From Thauera sp. 28 (lineage in GTDB: Bacteria; Pseudomonadota; Gammaproteobacteria; Burkholderiales; Rhodocyclaceae), in contig NZ_AMXA01000005.1 in assembly GCF_000310145.2 (NCBI RefSeq), positions 1 through 64,000 on the forward strand: a stretch of 64,000 nucleotides of DNA, read 5' to 3'. Each line of letters opens with the position of its first letter. The first letter of the stretch is position 1. This document shows positions 55,628 through 63,882 of this stretch, one piece after another. Under the pieces are notes generated by a model, which had not been told where the DNA came from, did no database searches, and saw nothing but the letters and a program-made list of their open reading frames with translations. The translations under genes were made by a program, and so were the position numbers.

Positions 55628-55651
55628 AAAGCCGGGCATGCCCGGCTTTTT
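55628..55651 (+). terminator. Rho-independent terminator after the OmpA-like gene
   Basis: AAAGCCGGGC/GCCCGGCTTT stem with an AT loop, running into TTTT. It is 28 bp past the stop and about 22 bp before the SDR start. Confidence 0.85.
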
Positions 55652-55673
55652 CGCACAAGAGAGGAACGGCGCT

Positions 55674-56486
55674 ATGAAGCGACTCGATGGCAAGACCGCC
55701 TTGGTGACCGGCGCCGCGCGCGGCATCGGGGCAGCGATTGCCACGACCTTTGTTGAAAATGGCGCCTTCGTCTATCTGAGCGACATCAACGAAGACATGG
55801 GCCAGGCGCTTGCCGCCGCCCTGGGTGCCAATGCGCGCTACCTACACCTCGACGTGCGCGAAGAACCCCATTGGCAGGCGGCCATGGCGCAGATCCTTGG
55901 CGAAGCGGCGGGCCTGAACGTCCTGGTCAACAACGCAGGGATCACCGGATTCGAGGACGGTTGCCTGGTGCACGACCCCGAACATGCCTCGCTCGCGGAT
56001 TGGCATGCCGTGCATCGCACGAATCTGGACGGTGTGTTTCTCGGCTGCAAGCACGCCATTCAGGCGATGCGCCAATCGGCAAGCACGGGCTCGATCATCA
56101 ATGTGTCCTCGCGCTCCGGCCTGGTCGGCATCCCCGGCGCCGCGGCCTATGCCTCGTCAAAGGCCGCCGTGCGCAACCATACGAAGACCGTGGCGCTCTA
56201 CTGCGCCGAGCAGGGCTTGCCGGTCCGGTGCAACTCGATCCACCCCGCCGCCGTGCTGACACCCATGTGGGAACCGCTCCTGGGCGAGGGTCCGGAGCGC
56301 GAGATCAGAATGCGCGAGTTCGTCCAGGATTGCCCCCTGCGACGCTTCGGGCGGCCGGAGGAGGTCGCCGCCGTAGCCGTGATGCTCGCCTCCGACGAGG
56401 CCGCCTACATGAACGGGGCGGAACTCAACATCGATGGCGGCATCCTCGCTGGCGCCGTTGCGGCACCTGCATCTTCTCGGCAGTAG
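55674..56486 (+). CDS. SDR-family NAD(P)-dependent oxidoreductase
   Basis: 270 aa from the ATG at 55674 with GAGGA upstream. Rossmann motif [15 protein letters not shown] (VNNAGITG) and the catalytic YASSK preceded by the Ser in [11 protein letters not shown] classical short-chain dehydrogenase with all catalytic residues. The substrate is unknown. The C-terminal [12 protein letters not shown] closes the fold as usual. Confidence 0.85.
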
Positions 56487-57451: not shown

Positions 57452-57536
57452 GTTCAACGCTCGGGCTCAGGGACGGCAAAAAGCTGAGCGATGAACGAGC
57501 GGGGCTTTTTGCAGCCCCTTGGAGCCCATTGTTAGC
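57452..57536 (-). repeat. attC-like recombination site 1
   Basis: Minus-strand reading: inverse core GCTAAC (57536-57531), an imperfect hairpin arm (GGGCTC pairs with GAGCCC, CAAAAAGC with GCTTTTTG) and core GTTGAAC (57458-57452), fitting GTTRRRY. About 85 bp. It follows the 57539-57832 gene immediately, as attC sites follow cassette genes. Confidence 0.65.
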
Positions 57537-57538
57537 AA

Positions 57539-57832
57539 CTACCTGTTTGCAATGAGTTCTTCCGCTTTCTTAATGAATCTCTGCAAGTCGTCGGTACCAA
57601 GCGGATAGGAAGGACTTCTACTCCCTGCGATTGCAACGCCATAAAGCATTTGAACCTTGACAACCTCATGGTTCTCCCCGCCCCAGACCTCTGATCCGAT
57701 TGATATTCTGTACTGCGTGTTTTTAGGGTGTGGATCGCTGGCCTTTACGTATGCAATTTTCTCTGAGTGGGGGAAATATGCATTTGGCACAGGGGAACCT
57801 CCAGAATTGATTGAACAGATGACAGTATCCAC
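57539..57832 (-). CDS. Hypothetical cassette protein
   Basis: 97 aa from a GTG at 57832, with a stop codon immediately upstream in frame and no clear ribosome site. No signal peptide, TM helix or known motif; fairly hydrophilic, with an aromatic/Gly-rich middle (SIGSEVWGGENHEVVKVQMLYGV) and a helical end (DDLQRFIKKAEELIANR). The base composition is much more AT-rich than the rest of the window. It ends 2 bp before an attC-like site, so it is the 3' gene of a cassette. Function unknown. Confidence 0.55.
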   Translation of the reverse strand: MDTVICSINSGGSPVPNAYFPHSEKIAYVKASDPHPKNTQYRISIGSEVWGGENHEVVKVQMLYGVAIAGSRSPSYPLGTDDLQRFIKKAEELIANR

Positions 57833-57877
57833 CTATAGATTCTTATGGCAACTTTTGTAACCCATTTAGAATAAGTG

Positions 57878-58318
57878 CTATTTTTTGATTATGTCATTCA
57901 TATAGTCGATGCCACCAAAGCTGGCACCTAGAGAAAAAATAAAGAACAATCCTCCAAATACATAGCCAGCTTCTTGCCCCCACCACTCATTACCCAGCAT
58001 GTAACCGATAAAACCGAATGCCCCGGCAAGCGCCAAGCCTACGATTTTGCCTACCACCGGAATCATGAGAACAAGCATTAACCCAAGAAATGCTCCGCCA
58101 AATACAAGCCATGATTCTTTGTATACCCCCGAAGCTATCGCAACGATAAGAATTTGAAACATGAACGGACCGGAAAGATCCTGGTTCAGATGGGACTGGG
58201 TAACTGCTGCCCTTTGTTCTTTAATTCTTGAATGACTCAAAGGTGCGCCACATTTTGGGCATGACGATGCCTTATCGCTAACTTCGTTGTTGCACTCTGC
58301 ACATTTAATCATAGCCAT
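57878..58318 (-). CDS. Zinc-ribbon membrane protein (cassette)
   Basis: 146 aa. N-terminal zinc ribbon with CAEC...CPKC, a basic linker (RIKEQRAAV), then three TM helices (about residues 52-65, 70-95 and 100-130), ending GGIDYMNDIIKK. A strong AAGGAG precedes the ATG at 58318; a second Met two codons later could be used. The region is AT-rich. It starts about 21 nt after the core of attC-like site 2, the usual spacing of a cassette's first gene. Membrane protein of unknown function. Confidence 0.7.
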   Translation of the reverse strand: MAMIKCAECNNEVSDKASSCPKCGAPLSHSRIKEQRAAVTQSHLNQDLSGPFMFQILIVAIASGVYKESWLVFGGAFLGLMLVLMIPVVGKIVGLALAGAFGFIGYMLGNEWWGQEAGYVFGGLFFIFSLGASFGGIDYMNDIIKK

Positions 58319-58338
58319 GATGATTCTCCTTTTTTATT

Positions 58339-58411
58339 GCTAACGACCAGCGTAACCGGCGCCCAACGGAGCGCAGCGCAGTTGGGCGTCCGAGTTGACG
58401 CTGTTGTTAGC
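58339..58411 (-). repeat. attC-like recombination site 2
   Basis: Minus-strand reading: inverse core GCTAAC (58411-58406), core GTTAGC (58344-58339). The two are exactly complementary, with a 61-bp imperfect hairpin between (GCGTCAACTCGG...CCGGTTACGC; CGCCCAACTGCG pairs with CGTTGGGCG). This is the classic Pseudomonas/Xanthomonas-type shape. The stop codon of the preceding gene lies inside the inverse core, a hallmark of integron cassettes. Confidence 0.8.
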
Positions 58412-58862
58412 GCTTCTGCTCATATTTCGCCCGCGCCGGCTCGTAAGAAATCCTGACGATCCAATCACGAACCACCTTCACCCTCATTACGAGCGGACCT
58501 GCCTCCAACTTAACACGCTCCCAATCGTGTTTGAGCAGAAGCGCTATTCGTTCCGCGAATTCCTCGGCACGCTCAAGCTCCTTTCCCTCGTCGGGAAGAG
58601 AAATACACCTGATGATCGCGCCATCATCTTCATCTTCTGGGTTCAGAATCGCCCTGAACTCTACCCTAAGCTTATCCAGCGATTCTTTGTCACGGGAAAT
58701 TATGGCGTCGTGGACGGTAAGCGACTTTACTCTGACCTTCTCACGCCAAGATCGGCGGTCTTGCGTGATGTTCTCGATGCTAATCTTTCGCTGCGCGGTC
58801 CAGGCGGCAACGAGCCCAGCTACGATTGCTGCAATTACTGTTGAAGTAAGAATCACGTTCAC
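58407..58862 (-). CDS. Hypothetical membrane-anchored cassette protein
   Basis: 151 aa from a GTG at 58862 preceded by GGGAGAAAG. One N-terminal TM helix (VILTSTVIAAIVAGLVAAWTA), then a soluble, highly charged helical domain (RSWREKVRVKSLTVHDAIIS, ERAEEFAERIALLLKHDWERV). No family recognised. AT-rich like its neighbours. The start is 15 bp after a GTTAGC core (58882-58877) and the stop lies inside attC site 2, so it fills one cassette exactly. Confidence 0.65.
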   Translation of the reverse strand: MNVILTSTVIAAIVAGLVAAWTAQRKISIENITQDRRSWREKVRVKSLTVHDAIISRDKESLDKLRVEFRAILNPEDEDDGAIIRCISLPDEGKELERAEEFAERIALLLKHDWERVKLEAGPLVMRVKVVRDWIVRISYEPARAKYEQKR

Positions 58863-58876
58863 CGCTACTTTCTCCC

Positions 58877-58882
58877 GCTAAC
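58877..58882 (-). repeat. Integron core site (GTTAGC) before the first cassette gene
   Basis: Minus-strand GTTAGC 14 bp upstream of the 58862 gene. It marks the 5' boundary of the first cassette. The sequence just upstream lacks a clear inverse core, so it may be what is left of an attI site. No integrase gene is adjacent. Confidence 0.5.
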
Positions 58883-59299
58883 GTGTTCTGCAAGTTACTG
58901 TTTAGAAGCGAAGATTACGCGAACCACTGAGTAACAACGCAGGCAAAGCAGCAGCCGACAGCTTTCCGAGTCGAGGCGACCGATTTGGCATACAGGCCAG
59001 CAGCATACCGCCTCGCTCGAATGACCGCTATCCGGAATGGGTGGCCAGTGACAGCCCCTGGACGAATGTGAGTCCGCGTTGAACGCCTCCCAGTTCTACC
59101 TTTTGTTCTTCGCCCGAATATAGAGCATCTTACTTGTCCCACCCGGCGCAGCCCTGCTTCCGAGCTCCCGCGCGATGTGCAAGGCTTCGCCCTGCCACCC
59201 CGATTCTCTGGCGGCACCCCGGCATCCCGCAGTTGTTGCAGCGCCCCGAGGGGCGGGCGCAGCTGGAAGGCTTCAGCGCGCGGCGGCCTGGAGCCTCGC
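58883..59299. other. Non-coding stretch upstream of the cassettes
   Basis: About 420 bp between the cassette core and the halohydrin-dehalogenase-like gene. I find no supported gene, tRNA or intact integrase. A minus-strand frame runs through it but reads as noise (Arg/Cys-rich, no domains). A GCGTTGAAC near 59069 could be a decayed core, without enough around it to call. Confidence 0.45.
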
Positions 59300-59980
59300 C
59301 TACCGCCCCACCCAGCCGCCACAGACCGGAAACACCTGGCCGACGAAACAGTCCGCGGCCGGGCTGCACAGGTAGGCCGCGAACAGCGCATCCTCGCGCG
59401 CAGACACCAGACGTCCCAGCGGCACCTCGCGCGCCAGCCGCTCCTGGAAGCGCGGGTTGGCCTGCACCTCGGGCGGGAAGTAGGTCGGGTTATCGACGAA
59501 GTTCTGCGCGACGGCATTGACCTGCACGTTGTGCGCGGCCAGTTCCACGCCGATCGCCTGCACATAGGCCAGTTGCGCGCCGCGCGCGGCACTGTAGGTG
59601 GAGGCGCGCTTCATGCCGCGCAGGGCCGAGGCGCTGCCCATAAGCAGGATCTTGCCCGCACGGCGCTCGACCATGGCCGGCGCAGCGGCGCGCACCAGGC
59701 GTGGCAGCGGGTCGACCAGCGCAGCGAAGACGTCGCGCCATTCGGCATCGGTGACCTCGACCGCGGCGGTCGATGGGGCCTTGATGGCCAGGTTGGCGAC
59801 CACGACGTCGATGTGCCCGGCCGCGCGCACCACGCGCTCGGCCGCATCGACCACGGCAAGATCATCGGCGCTGGCGACGACCTCCGCGCCCTGCTCGGCG
59901 AAGACTTCGCACAGCACGGGGCCCATGAAGGCATCGGCCTGGGTGATGAGGACGCGCTTGCCGGCGAGTGCGTTTTCCAT
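59300..59980 (-). CDS. Halohydrin dehalogenase-like enzyme
   Basis: 226 aa of SDR fold, but the catalytic pattern is that of halohydrin dehalogenases. Ser116, Tyr129 and Arg133 give S-x12-Y-x3-R (Arg replaces the SDR Lys), and T13-QADA-F18-M-G20 gives T-x4-F-x-G in place of the NAD-binding glycine motif. The loop AQNFVDNPTYFPPEV resembles the halide pocket, and the end GQVFPVCGGW matches. Such enzymes convert vicinal halohydrins to epoxides and halide without cofactor, and open epoxides with azide, cyanide or nitrite. The natural substrate is unknown. No SDR-type cofactor role is expected. Confidence 0.75.
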   Translation of the reverse strand: MENALAGKRVLITQADAFMGPVLCEVFAEQGAEVVASADDLAVVDAAERVVRAAGHIDVVVANLAIKAPSTAAVEVTDAEWRDVFAALVDPLPRLVRAAAPAMVERRAGKILLMGSASALRGMKRASTYSAARGAQLAYVQAIGVELAAHNVQVNAVAQNFVDNPTYFPPEVQANPRFQERLAREVPLGRLVSAREDALFAAYLCSPAADCFVGQVFPVCGGWVGR

Positions 59981-60134: not shown

Positions 60135-60938
60135 TCAGGGCAGCGCGCTGAGGAAGGACCTCACCATGGCAACGACTTCCGCCTCGCGCTCGCGATGCGG
60201 CACATGGCGCGTCTCGGCCATCAGCGCCAGCTGCGCCGGGCCGGCGCTGAGCTCGGCAATCAGCGCCGGATGCGCTGGGGAGCCGTACTCGTCGTCGATG
60301 CCGTGGATCACCAGGCTCGGACACTTGACCTCGGGCAGCACGACGCGCAACGACCAGGCCGCGAAGTCCGGGTGCAGCCAGGAGCCGATCCAGGCGTCGA
60401 GCACCCAGCGCGCCTTGTCACCGTGGTAGCGCGCGAGACGTTCGACCTGGCCGGGGTCCTTGAACTGCTCGCGCGCGTCCTCGATCCCCGCGACGGTGCG
60501 GTCCTCGACGAAGGCCTGGGCGGATTCGGTGATCAGGGCGACGCATGCCGCGGCATGACGCACGGCGCAGTTCACCGCCATGCCGCCGCCCACGCTGTGG
60601 CCGAAGACGATGAAGCGCGCGAGATCGAGCTGGTCGATGACGGCGGCGAAATCGGCTTCGGCCTCACTGGCGATGAAGTCCTGCGCCAGCCTGCCCGGAT
60701 GCGGGTCGGAGCGGCCGAAACCGAGGCGGTCATAGGCGAACACCTGGCGGCCAGTGGCCTTGCACAGCTCGGCAGGAAAGCCGCGCCACAGCTCGACGCT
60801 GCCGAGCGAGTCGTGCAACAGCACGATCGGCGCCCGCGCCGAAGGCTCGGTAGGCATCCAGCTGCGCACGAAGAGGCGGCCCTGGCGGCCGTCGACCCAG
60901 GCGTCCTGGCTCGTTGTGTGTTGTGGTTTAGCGTTCAA
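60135..60938 (-). CDS. Alpha/beta hydrolase
   Basis: About 267 aa from a TTG at 60938; the Met at MPTEPS is a shorter alternative, but the earlier residues (DAWVDGRQGRLFVRSW) look like the first strand. Nucleophile elbow GHSVGGG (Ser), oxyanion region VLLHDSLGSVELW, acid in HGIDDEYGS and His in ETRHVPHRERE. The Ser nucleophile means an esterase or lipase-like hydrolase, not an epoxide hydrolase or haloalkane dehalogenase (those use Asp). It lies 154 bp upstream of the halohydrin dehalogenase-like gene on the same strand; a shared pathway is possible. Confidence 0.75.
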   Translation of the reverse strand: MNAKPQHTTSQDAWVDGRQGRLFVRSWMPTEPSARAPIVLLHDSLGSVELWRGFPAELCKATGRQVFAYDRLGFGRSDPHPGRLAQDFIASEAEADFAAVIDQLDLARFIVFGHSVGGGMAVNCAVRHAAACVALITESAQAFVEDRTVAGIEDAREQFKDPGQVERLARYHGDKARWVLDAWIGSWLHPDFAAWSLRVVLPEVKCPSLVIHGIDDEYGSPAHPALIAELSAGPAQLALMAETRHVPHREREAEVVAMVRSFLSALP

Positions 60939-60960: not shown

Positions 60961-62100
60961 TCAGCGTTGCGGGTCGGCGCGATTGCCCTCGTCCATGCGG
61001 CGGATCGCCTGCTCGCCCTGGCTGGCGAGCGCGGCGAGGCGGTCGATCTGGGCGTCGAGCCTGGGCAGGGCCTCCTGGCGGTAGCGCGACAGGTCGTCGA
61101 TGGCGCCAATGACGTCGGCAAAGGCCTGCTCGAGCTGACCCATGTCGAGCATGGTCGAAGCGGCACGCTTCTGGATGTCCACGCCCTGGGTGCGCAGCGC
61201 CTGGGCGGTGCCGGCAATGAGTGCAGAGGTCGTGTCGTTGAGCGCTGCAACGCGGTCGAGCACCAGGCGCTGGTTGGCGAGGCCCAGCGCCACCGTGACC
61301 GCGACGTTGAGCGCCGACACCGTGACGTTGATTGCGCGGTCCACGCCACGGATCAGCTCGCGATTATTGCGGATCACCACCTCGAGCGCGAGCACGCCCT
61401 GCTGGCTCACCGCGACCTGCTGCTGCAGGTCGATGATGCGCTGGCGCAGCGGGAACAGGAGCTCCTCCTCGACGAAGGCGCGGCGCGCTGCGGGCAGGCC
61501 GGTGGCCGCGGCCTCGCGGGCGAGGCGGCGGTCGATCATGCGGCCGAGTTCGACCTGGCGCTCGAGCTGGGCGAGGATGGCGCGCAGGGACTGCTGGTCG
61601 TCGGCCAGGGTAAGATTGTCGCGGCGCAGCATGTCGGCACCGGCCTGCAGGTCGCGGATGATGGCGTCGAGTGCATCCTGTGCCTTCTCGTACTTCTGGA
61701 AGTAGCGCTGCATCGGCTTGCCGACGCCGGGGATGAAGGACAGCGCACGCGACAGGCCGTCGCCACTCAGCGTCTGGCGCGCAGGGTCGAGGTCCTGCAT
61801 CTTGTCGCGCAAGGCCATCAGGGCCTGGGCCACCGGGCCGCCTTCGTCGCCCTGATGGGCAAGCTTGCGGATCGGCGCCTGCAGCATCTCGCTGCGCCAG
61901 GCGGCCTGGCGCTGCAACTCGACGCCCATGGTGTCGACCGCCTCGCGCTGGCGCTGCAGCTCGGCCTCGTCGACGGCGAGGACATCGCGCACGAAGGCGT
62001 CGGCGGTGGCGGCGAGTTGGGCGTCTTCGGGCGCCTCCGCAGGCTGGGGCGGCACCGCTTCGCGCGCGATGTCCTCGATCGGGGGCAGTGACAGGCTCAT
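60961..62100 (-). CDS. TelA-family toxic anion resistance protein
   Basis: 379 aa from the ATG at 62100 (MSLSLPPIEDIA). Long helical protein with the TelA pattern: FIPGVGKPMQRYFQKYEKAQDALDAII in the middle and LRQRIIDLQQQVAVSQQGVLALEVVIRNNREL. TelA-like proteins are associated with resistance to tellurite and other stresses; the mechanism is not known. It lies 16 bp downstream of a membrane protein gene on the same strand. Confidence 0.82.
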   Translation of the reverse strand: MSLSLPPIEDIAREAVPPQPAEAPEDAQLAATADAFVRDVLAVDEAELQRQREAVDTMGVELQRQAAWRSEMLQAPIRKLAHQGDEGGPVAQALMALRDKMQDLDPARQTLSGDGLSRALSFIPGVGKPMQRYFQKYEKAQDALDAIIRDLQAGADMLRRDNLTLADDQQSLRAILAQLERQVELGRMIDRRLAREAAATGLPAARRAFVEEELLFPLRQRIIDLQQQVAVSQQGVLALEVVIRNNRELIRGVDRAINVTVSALNVAVTVALGLANQRLVLDRVAALNDTTSALIAGTAQALRTQGVDIQKRAASTMLDMGQLEQAFADVIGAIDDLSRYRQEALPRLDAQIDRLAALASQGEQAIRRMDEGNRADPQR

Positions 62101-62116
62101 TGCAACACTCCTCGGT

Positions 62117-63052
62117 TCAGGGCTGGCGGCCGTACAGACCGGCACGCTCGGCAAAGCGGCGCAGCTCTTGCAGCGCCTGCTCCATGTTGCCCGCACTGCC
62201 GGACTGTGTGCGGCCAGTGTCGATGCGGGCGACCGCGACCGCAACATGGTCGAGCGCGGTGAGCGCGGCCTCATTGCCGGCGGCAATCTCGGCCAGCCGG
62301 CGCTCGGTCTCATCGGCAATCGCCAGCCGGCGCTGCAGCGCTTCGCGCTCGGTGGGATTGAGGCGCGCGGGGGCGCGCTCGAGACGCTCGCGCACGAAAT
62401 CGGCATCCAGGCCGGCGCTGCCGTGCACCAGCTCGACCATCGCACCCAGCCCGGCGCTGGCCTCGCGACCTACCTCGGCGACCAGGCCACGGGCGCGCTC
62501 GTAGGTGAGCTCGCGCGTATCGAACTTGTCGTCCAGCACGGCGAGCGCGCGCTGGTAGCGGGTGAACAGGCGGTCGGCCTGCACGGCGAGGTCGGGGCGG
62601 CGCAGGCCGACAAGCTCGCGCTTGACCTCCCACAGCTGCAGCACCACCGCATCGGCGTTGGTAGGCGCGAGGGCGGGATCGAGGGTAAGCAGGTCGCGCT
62701 CGCGGTGCGCCTGGGCCAGTTCGTCGCGCTGGCGCTCCCGGATAGCGGCACGTTCGCGCCCCGCCCGTGCCGCACGCCAGCGCCACCAGCGCCGCTCAAG
62801 GAAAAGCGCTGTCGGCACCGCGACCAGACCGGCGAGCCAGCCGCCCAGGCTGGCACCGAACCCACCCCACAGCGAGGTCAGGAACAACAGCATCGCCAGC
62901 GCAGGCATCGCCACCGCGTAACGCAGGATCACCTGCCAGCGCGTGGCAAGCTCTTCCGGCACGGCCAGGCGCGGATCGTACAGCCCGGCCACGAACCAGG
63001 GCACGAAGGTGACGAACAGGCCAAAGGCAAAGCCCTGCAGGAATTCGAACAT
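62117..63052 (-). CDS. TelA-partner membrane protein (5-bromo-4-chloroindolyl phosphate hydrolysis/XpaC-like)
   Basis: 311 aa. TM helices near residues 5-25, 43-62 and 67-85, followed by a basic segment (RRWWRWRAARAGR) and a long helical region with heptad-like charges. Its pairing with TelA on the same strand is common in bacteria, where the partner is often XpaC-like. I call it by context and topology, and the exact family is uncertain. Confidence 0.6.
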   Translation of the reverse strand: MFEFLQGFAFGLFVTFVPWFVAGLYDPRLAVPEELATRWQVILRYAVAMPALAMLLFLTSLWGGFGASLGGWLAGLVAVPTALFLERRWWRWRAARAGRERAAIRERQRDELAQAHRERDLLTLDPALAPTNADAVVLQLWEVKRELVGLRRPDLAVQADRLFTRYQRALAVLDDKFDTRELTYERARGLVAEVGREASAGLGAMVELVHGSAGLDADFVRERLERAPARLNPTEREALQRRLAIADETERRLAEIAAGNEAALTALDHVAVAVARIDTGRTQSGSAGNMEQALQELRRFAERAGLYGRQP

Positions 63053-63176
63053 CGATGCCTCCGCTTCCCGGCGCCCGGGTGCCCTCAGGTCGGTCCGTTC
63101 TTCGCCTCGGCGGGCGAGGCGCCCTGATCCGAGCGTTCGTTGTGGCGCCTGGCGATGGCCGTCTTCCGTCGCCCGC

Positions 63177-63806
63177 TCAGCCGCGCAAGGCGGGGTTGAG
63201 CGTATACGTGCCTGTCAGCTTCGCCTCGGCGAGCACATGGCCGGCAATCGCCGCACGCACGTCCTGGCCCGTGAAGCGCCCATCCACGGCACAACGCGGG
63301 ACGTCCAGCGCGTAGAGCGTGAACACGTAGTGGTGGATGATCTCGTCGTTCCAAGGCGGACAAGGGCCGTCATAGCCGTGGTAGTCGCCCTTCATCGCCT
63401 CGTCACCGGCAAACCAGGCAGTGTAGTCATTGACGCCGTGGCGTGCGCCGAGCGCAGTCTCGGGCCCGGGCTTGCCGCCGGGCGTGACCTCGCCCGAGAA
63501 ATGGCCGGCGTCGATCGCGCGCAGGTCGGCGGGCAGGTCGACCACCACCCAGTGGAAGAAATCGACACGCGGCAGGCTGGCGGGCACGCTGCGCCCCTCC
63601 TGATTCACGTCGTCACCCTTGCTGGGCACATCGGGGTCGTGGCAGATCAGCACGAAGGACTGCGTACCCGCCGGCACCTCTGCCCACGACAGCTGCGGAT
63701 TGCGGTTGCCGCCCAGGCAGACGTGACCTTCGTCGGCCGGAATGCAGAACGCGAACTCGCCCGGGATGGGGGCGCTGTCGGTGAAGCTCTGGCTGCTCAG
63801 TTTCAA
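63177..63806 (-). CDS. YbhB/YbcL-family (PEBP-like) protein
   Basis: 209 aa from a TTG at 63806, chosen because GAGGAG lies 7 nt upstream and the product then starts MKLSSQSFTD, the usual family start; a Met 20 codons upstream has no support. Phosphatidylethanolamine-binding fold with the conserved DPDVPSK and the GPCPPWNDEIIHHYVFTLYALD segments. Bacterial members have unclear physiological roles. Soluble, cytoplasmic. Confidence 0.83.
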   Translation of the reverse strand: MKLSSQSFTDSAPIPGEFAFCIPADEGHVCLGGNRNPQLSWAEVPAGTQSFVLICHDPDVPSKGDDVNQEGRSVPASLPRVDFFHWVVVDLPADLRAIDAGHFSGEVTPGGKPGPETALGARHGVNDYTAWFAGDEAMKGDYHGYDGPCPPWNDEIIHHYVFTLYALDVPRCAVDGRFTGQDVRAAIAGHVLAEAKLTGTYTLNPALRG

Positions 63807-63882
63807 GGCTGTCTCCTCGCTGGTTGAAGCTTGTTGGGAAGGCTGTTCGGCATCGCAGGCGCGCACATCACGGGGCCGCGCC

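Follow-up and report, generated by a model that had tools for sequence, protein, structure and literature searches.

Does the gene at 59300..59980 on the minus strand of this Thauera sp. 28 DNA (64,000 nucleotides, hereafter the window) encode an ordinary short-chain dehydrogenase/reductase (SDR), or a halohydrin dehalogenase (HHDH), as an earlier note on the raw letters had proposed? The gene has an ATG start, includes its stop codon within these coordinates and codes for 226 amino acids. We suggest with high confidence that it encodes a D-type halohydrin dehalogenase, with its activity predicted from the family. The enzyme class proposed earlier is supported by sequence, tree and fold, and is corrected here to subtype D.

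The gene and its two motifs

Parts of two papers (PMC4989007, PMC11976700) define HHDHs by the motif T-x4-F/Y-x-G together with the motif S-x12-Y-x3-R. The former replaces the N-terminal T-G/A-x3-G/A-x-G of SDRs, the latter is the catalytic triad, and the window protein has both. Motif 1, T13-QADA-F18-M-G20 (59921..59944, minus strand), is found where the SDR glycine motif would sit and is assigned to the nucleophile (halide) pocket. Motif 2, S116-x12-Y129-x3-R133 (59582..59635, minus strand), is assigned to the catalytic triad. All six residues named in the earlier note (T13, F18, G20, S116, Y129 and R133) are present as stated in the ATG-started minus-strand frame, and the pair agrees with the published motifs as far as these parts of the papers define them. 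A classical SDR reductase, with T-G-x3-G-x-G and Y-x3-K, was considered and rejected, as Gln14, Phe18 and Arg133 are found instead. A portion of the 2016 review (PMC4989007) reports on mining with the two motifs, HHDH activity having been verified in 19 selected enzymes found in this way.

The chance occurrence of the motifs was tested on 1576 stop-to-stop frames of at least 200 amino acids from 80 related loci. Motif 1 occurs anywhere in 140 frames, motif 2 in 120 and both in 80. The motifs are ordered at the family spacing in 78 of these 80, each of which shows the letters typical of the HHDH family. The remaining two frames, those in L019 and L061, lack this order and are not HHDHs. Hence, a chance origin of the pair is rejected.

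The SDR comparison set consists of six proteins of the host genome, one located 2.8 kb away in the window and five taken from other matches. Gly at the position of F18 and Lys at that of R133 are present in all six, while the position of Q14 is occupied by Gly in five and by Ala in one; their identity to the window protein is 24.0-27.3%. The SDR of the window (55638-56486, plus strand) is ordinary, with canonical motifs, and provides a useful internal control for the HHDH assignment. In the 81 orthologues, a number that counts the window protein, S116, Y129, R133 and G20 never vary, and T13 and F18 are each replaced in a single one.

We note that two D-type orthologues are each short of one motif 1 residue, L054 with T13 changed to Ile and L070 with F18 changed to Leu. 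A strict two-motif screen would therefore miss both.

Subtype, fold and proposed reaction

Measured on a single alignment, the identity of the window protein is 68.9% with HheD2, 65.5% with the HheD8 mutant (223 columns), 49.8% with HheB, 34.0% with 6a41, 30.4% with HheG, 28.6% with HheA2 and 28.0% with HheC; the protein thus falls with the HheD enzymes. A phmmer search of PDB sequences gave 454 matches at E 0.001, and the best 60 of the 454 were examined. Among these, 7b73 comes first (E 8.5e-101), followed by 8xxb (4.9e-91), HheB 4zd6 (8.5e-62), 5b12 and then 6a41 (3.6e-31), and the HheA, HheG-like and HheC chains have E-values between 1e-18 and 1e-21, as do FabG-type SDRs. 7b73 is the halohydrin dehalogenase HheD2, as described in part of PMC9629495, and the title of 8xxb gives the HheD8 triple mutant with chloride.

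According to sections of the 2016 review (PMC4989007), HHDH subtypes are less than 30% identical to one another, and the putative HheD19-HheD38 are 57-95% identical to the verified HheD-HheD6. This 30% line fails to part B from D, since the two are 50% alike here. Subtype E or F is very unlikely to apply, judging from the 69% identity to HheD2.

The maximum-likelihood tree was built from 41 rows, of which 24 come from the 80 named loci, three from loci in genomes of the same genus, two from the window itself, five from the further host SDRs and seven from the PDB; sequences of HheE and HheF were left out. The 35 HHDH rows are separated from the six SDR rows by a branch with support 100/99, and the window protein belongs to a B+D group with support 100/96. 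Support is weak (64/76) for uniting the 30 D rows in one group apart from HheB, and the tree has several long reference branches. A placement inside ordinary SDR clades, named in the earlier note as a result that would refute the proposal, was looked for in this small tree and was not found.

The AlphaFold model, built with 21 sequences in the alignment, has a mean pLDDT of 85.6 and pTM of 0.86, but is weak (pLDDT below 50) in two segments, 119-124, which adjoins the active site, and 221-226. The predicted model has an SDR-like fold. Foldseek gave 1996 matches with E-values up to 0.001. In the best 50 of the 1996, four 7b73 chains come first (TM 0.90-0.91), then 8xxb, HheB chains and 6a41; the nine top matches are HheD2, HheD8 and HheB chains, and HheC enters at rank 38, behind many SDRs. 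The 454 sequence and 1996 fold matches, many of them SDRs, show the shared superfamily only.

The putative halide-pocket loop Q159-P169 (AQNFVDNPTYFP; 59474..59506, minus strand), whose role is taken from the HHDH family, was aligned with HheD2, the HheD8 mutant, HheB, HheA2, HheC, HheG and 6a41. It is of D type: identical in HheD2 and with one change relative to HheD8, HheA2 (PNFFNNPTYFP) being the next closest. The reading of this region as HheC-like, made in the earlier note, is thus unsupported, given the D-type alignment and the entry of HheC only at rank 38 of the fold matches. The HheC subtype itself was tried and rejected on the three-residue gap in the loop alignment and the low overall identity.

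By analogy with the family, we suggest that Y129, acidified by R133, would take the proton of a substrate hydroxyl held by S116. The substrate oxygen would then attack the neighbouring carbon and expel the halide with the formation of the epoxide, and the expelled halide would enter the pocket formed by motif 1 and the 159-169 loop. In the reverse direction, the epoxide would be opened by halide, azide, cyanide, nitrite and similar anions. NAD(P) is probably not bound, because Gln14 and Phe18 occupy two glycine positions of the SDR motif.

Distribution, neighbourhood and natural role

In the genome collection 308 stretches match the search pattern, and 224 of them encode a relative at E 1e-3, a set that may include SDRs. 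The best 80 of the 224 were kept and are all 72-97% identical to the window protein; they include two records of one strain (L029 and L030) and many MAG contigs with unchecked binning. The rarity claimed earlier does not extend to the D type, which is found at at least 80 such loci. The closest named records among the best 80 of 224 are from Thauera (97, 95, 91 and 90% identity). The carriers are mostly Pseudomonadota, with further records named Desulfatitalea, Deltaproteobacteria, Acidobacteria, Chloroflexaceae and Gemmatimonadetes, the binning of the MAGs being unchecked.

At E 1e-50, and with its own genome counted, the HHDH is present in 15 of 29 genomes of the genus (9 of the 21 good ones) and in 5 of 369 genomes of a class-wide sample, where up to seven candidates per genome were scored. 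Within the genus the identities fall into three bands: seven genomes, among them one with a split copy, at 87-100%, five at 78-82% and three at 64-66%, the last band being the HheD8 clade of the tree. The split copy, in G026, lies in two pieces (L102, 1501-2180, and L106, 2405-3084) covering residues 1-147 and 165-226, and is either a broken gene or an assembly error. The gene is under purifying selection, with dN/dS of 0.07-0.17 against eight relatives, dS being near saturation for L021. No relative was found at E 1e-30 in 72,556 plasmid records.

Neighbouring genes were clustered over 81 loci in two ways. With stop-to-stop frames at E 1e-12, the top five clusters consist of the HHDH and of frames that overlap it, and the next is an alpha/beta hydrolase in six loci. 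Three of the top five also chain in non-overlapping frames from 13, 9 and 5 loci. A home-made gene caller based on codon usage, run at E 1e-5, gave no conserved neighbour: the largest non-HHDH clusters cover 6 of the 81 loci, and among the 25 listed clusters a gene lies within two genes of the HHDH in at most four loci. This caller misses genes, since it called the HHDH itself in just 76 of the 81 loci, and real neighbours can be missing because many of the loci are short contigs. The host assembly, estimated at 100% completeness, has no epoxide hydrolase of the EHN (PF06441) or LEH (PF07858) families, the two kinds that the search covered.

We suggest that the most likely, though weakly grounded, role is that of a stand-alone enzyme for detoxification or assimilation of small haloalcohols or epoxides. 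This physiological reading has no support from the context, given the lack of EHN and LEH enzymes in the host and of a conserved neighbour. According to the cited part of the 2016 review (PMC4989007), an operon shared with an epoxide hydrolase is known for just two HHDH genes. No paper on the natural role of D-type HHDHs was found; this is weak evidence of absence, as most subscription journals lie outside the literature covered.

Alternatively, a D-type HHDH might remove epoxides with an endogenous anion, or act on another cellular metabolite, rather than dehalogenate xenobiotics. We consider this rather unlikely for the present enzyme. It is favoured by the occurrence across many lineages (with MAG binning unchecked), by purifying selection and by the same two absences, of a conserved neighbour and of an EHN or LEH enzyme, and a passage of the 2016 review (PMC4989007) states that other physiological functions cannot be excluded. 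The patchy presence in the genus and in the class-wide sample, however, is a better fit to an accessory catabolic or detoxification gene than to a housekeeping one. Extended to the D type as a whole, the proposal would make these enzymes a widespread stand-alone family that clears reactive epoxides, or another metabolite, with a cellular anion and is not primarily one of xenobiotic dehalogenases. We regard this broader version as a distinctly unlikely conjecture; if true, it would explain both the missing conserved neighbour and the missing epoxide hydrolase partner. The lack of a detectable conserved neighbour thus sharpens the question of the natural role of D-type HHDHs without answering it.

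The stand-alone reading, which we prefer, has also to be weighed against a functional pair, in which the HHDH and the alpha/beta hydrolase upstream of it would serve one pathway, like HheC with its epoxide hydrolase. The hydrolase gene (60135..60896, minus strand; Pfam Abhydrolase_1, start codon chosen by eye) has the same orientation as the HHDH and ends 154 bp before its start. In the close Thauera clade the gene order is PEBP, hypothetical, TelA, alpha/beta hydrolase and HHDH, and the adjacency of the last two is kept in five genomes (G000, G011, G025, G026 and G027), with a sixth, G012, at a contig end. The sole case outside Thauera in the neighbour clusters is a Desulfatitalea record (L060), where a hydrolase of 36% identity is located 2.4 kb away from the HHDH gene.

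Against such a pair, the hydrolase has a Ser nucleophile (GHSVG). The epoxide hydrolases of the alpha/beta fold use an Asp nucleophile, and hence this neighbour is probably not an epoxide hydrolase. Moreover, the gap between TelA and the HHDH in G021 holds no full hydrolase match, the eight other Thauera HHDH loci (L094-L101) have no such hydrolase within flanks of 1.0-1.5 kb, and homologous hydrolases are present in Thauera genomes that lack the HHDH. A partnership of the two genes is therefore possible but unproven, and we hold a shared pathway to be improbable.

Two further features surround the gene. The PEBP, hypothetical and TelA-family block (60964-63866, minus strand) is kept in several Thauera genomes and is variable downstream of TelA. 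It is also found in the HHDH-free Thauera genomes G028, G024, G013 and G007 (in G007 with a split TelA match), where the hydrolase and HHDH of the window were not found after TelA. On the other side, just downstream of the HHDH, the stretch 57501-59000 has 45-52% GC against 66% for the window and contains three small ORFs, two without a Pfam family and one with a zinc ribbon. It may be a recent insertion.

Likely annotation and nearest known enzymes

The earlier note expected standard annotation to call this gene an SDR, and this is borne out as likely by the Pfam domain, the NCBIfam matches and the PDB names. The general SDR domain adh_short_C2 scores 108.6 bits against a cut-off of 27. NCBIfam yields 185 matching models; the best 25 of the 185 are all of SDR-type reductases or dehydrogenases and none of these reaches its cut-off, the model with the lowest E-value being a FabG subfamily with 102 bits against 222. 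Since adh_short_C2 passes its cut-off and the 25 best NCBIfam models, all below theirs, are SDR-named, an SDR label is the likely outcome of automatic annotation. Even HheD2 and HheD8 bear the PDB molecule name "Short-chain dehydrogenase/reductase SDR".

That the protein is in fact an ordinary SDR reductase, dependent on NAD(P) and with its motif residues there by chance, is scarcely credible: the Pfam score, the 185 NCBIfam matches and the SDR fold speak for it, and the sub-threshold scores of the 25 best NCBIfam models, Gln14 and Phe18 in place of the SDR glycines, Arg133 in place of Lys, the 100/99 separation from six host SDRs and two halohydrin dehalogenases as the nearest solved structures (66-69% identity) speak against it. 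Two motifs read in the raw sequence lead here to an HHDH to which general family models give an SDR label.

Among the known enzymes, HheC (1pwx) shares the motifs and the catalytic triad with the window protein, and differs from it in the low identity and in the three-residue insert of its pocket loop. Beyond the GGF/GGW end HheC continues for about 10 residues, whereas the window protein has only three. HheB (4zd6) is closer, with the motif 1 T-N-ADA-Y-MG and its grouping with D in the tree; unlike the window protein, it has Tyr for Phe in motif 1 and the pocket loop AQHWTQNKEYFW.

HheD8 (8xxb, the engineered mutant) is of subtype D, as is the window protein, and has both motifs, the loop with one change and the C terminus GGWVxR, but it falls in its own clade within D (100/100 branch). 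Wild-type HheD8 is encoded in another genome of the genus (G001), with the gene and TelA on different contigs. Over 223 residues the G001 protein and 8xxb disagree at three positions, whose letters and spacing match the engineered changes A69F, M124P and R127G. The HHDH of the window is thus an ordinary find, as the genus was already known to have a D-type enzyme of solved structure. It adds one further D-type HHDH, 65-69% identical to the two structure-solved D-type enzymes found here (one of them an engineered mutant), and is a candidate biocatalyst. The closest of all is HheD2 (7b73), from a gammaproteobacterium, which has the motifs, the loop QNFVDNPTYFP and the fold in common with the window protein; between these two we see sequence divergence alone and no qualitative difference.
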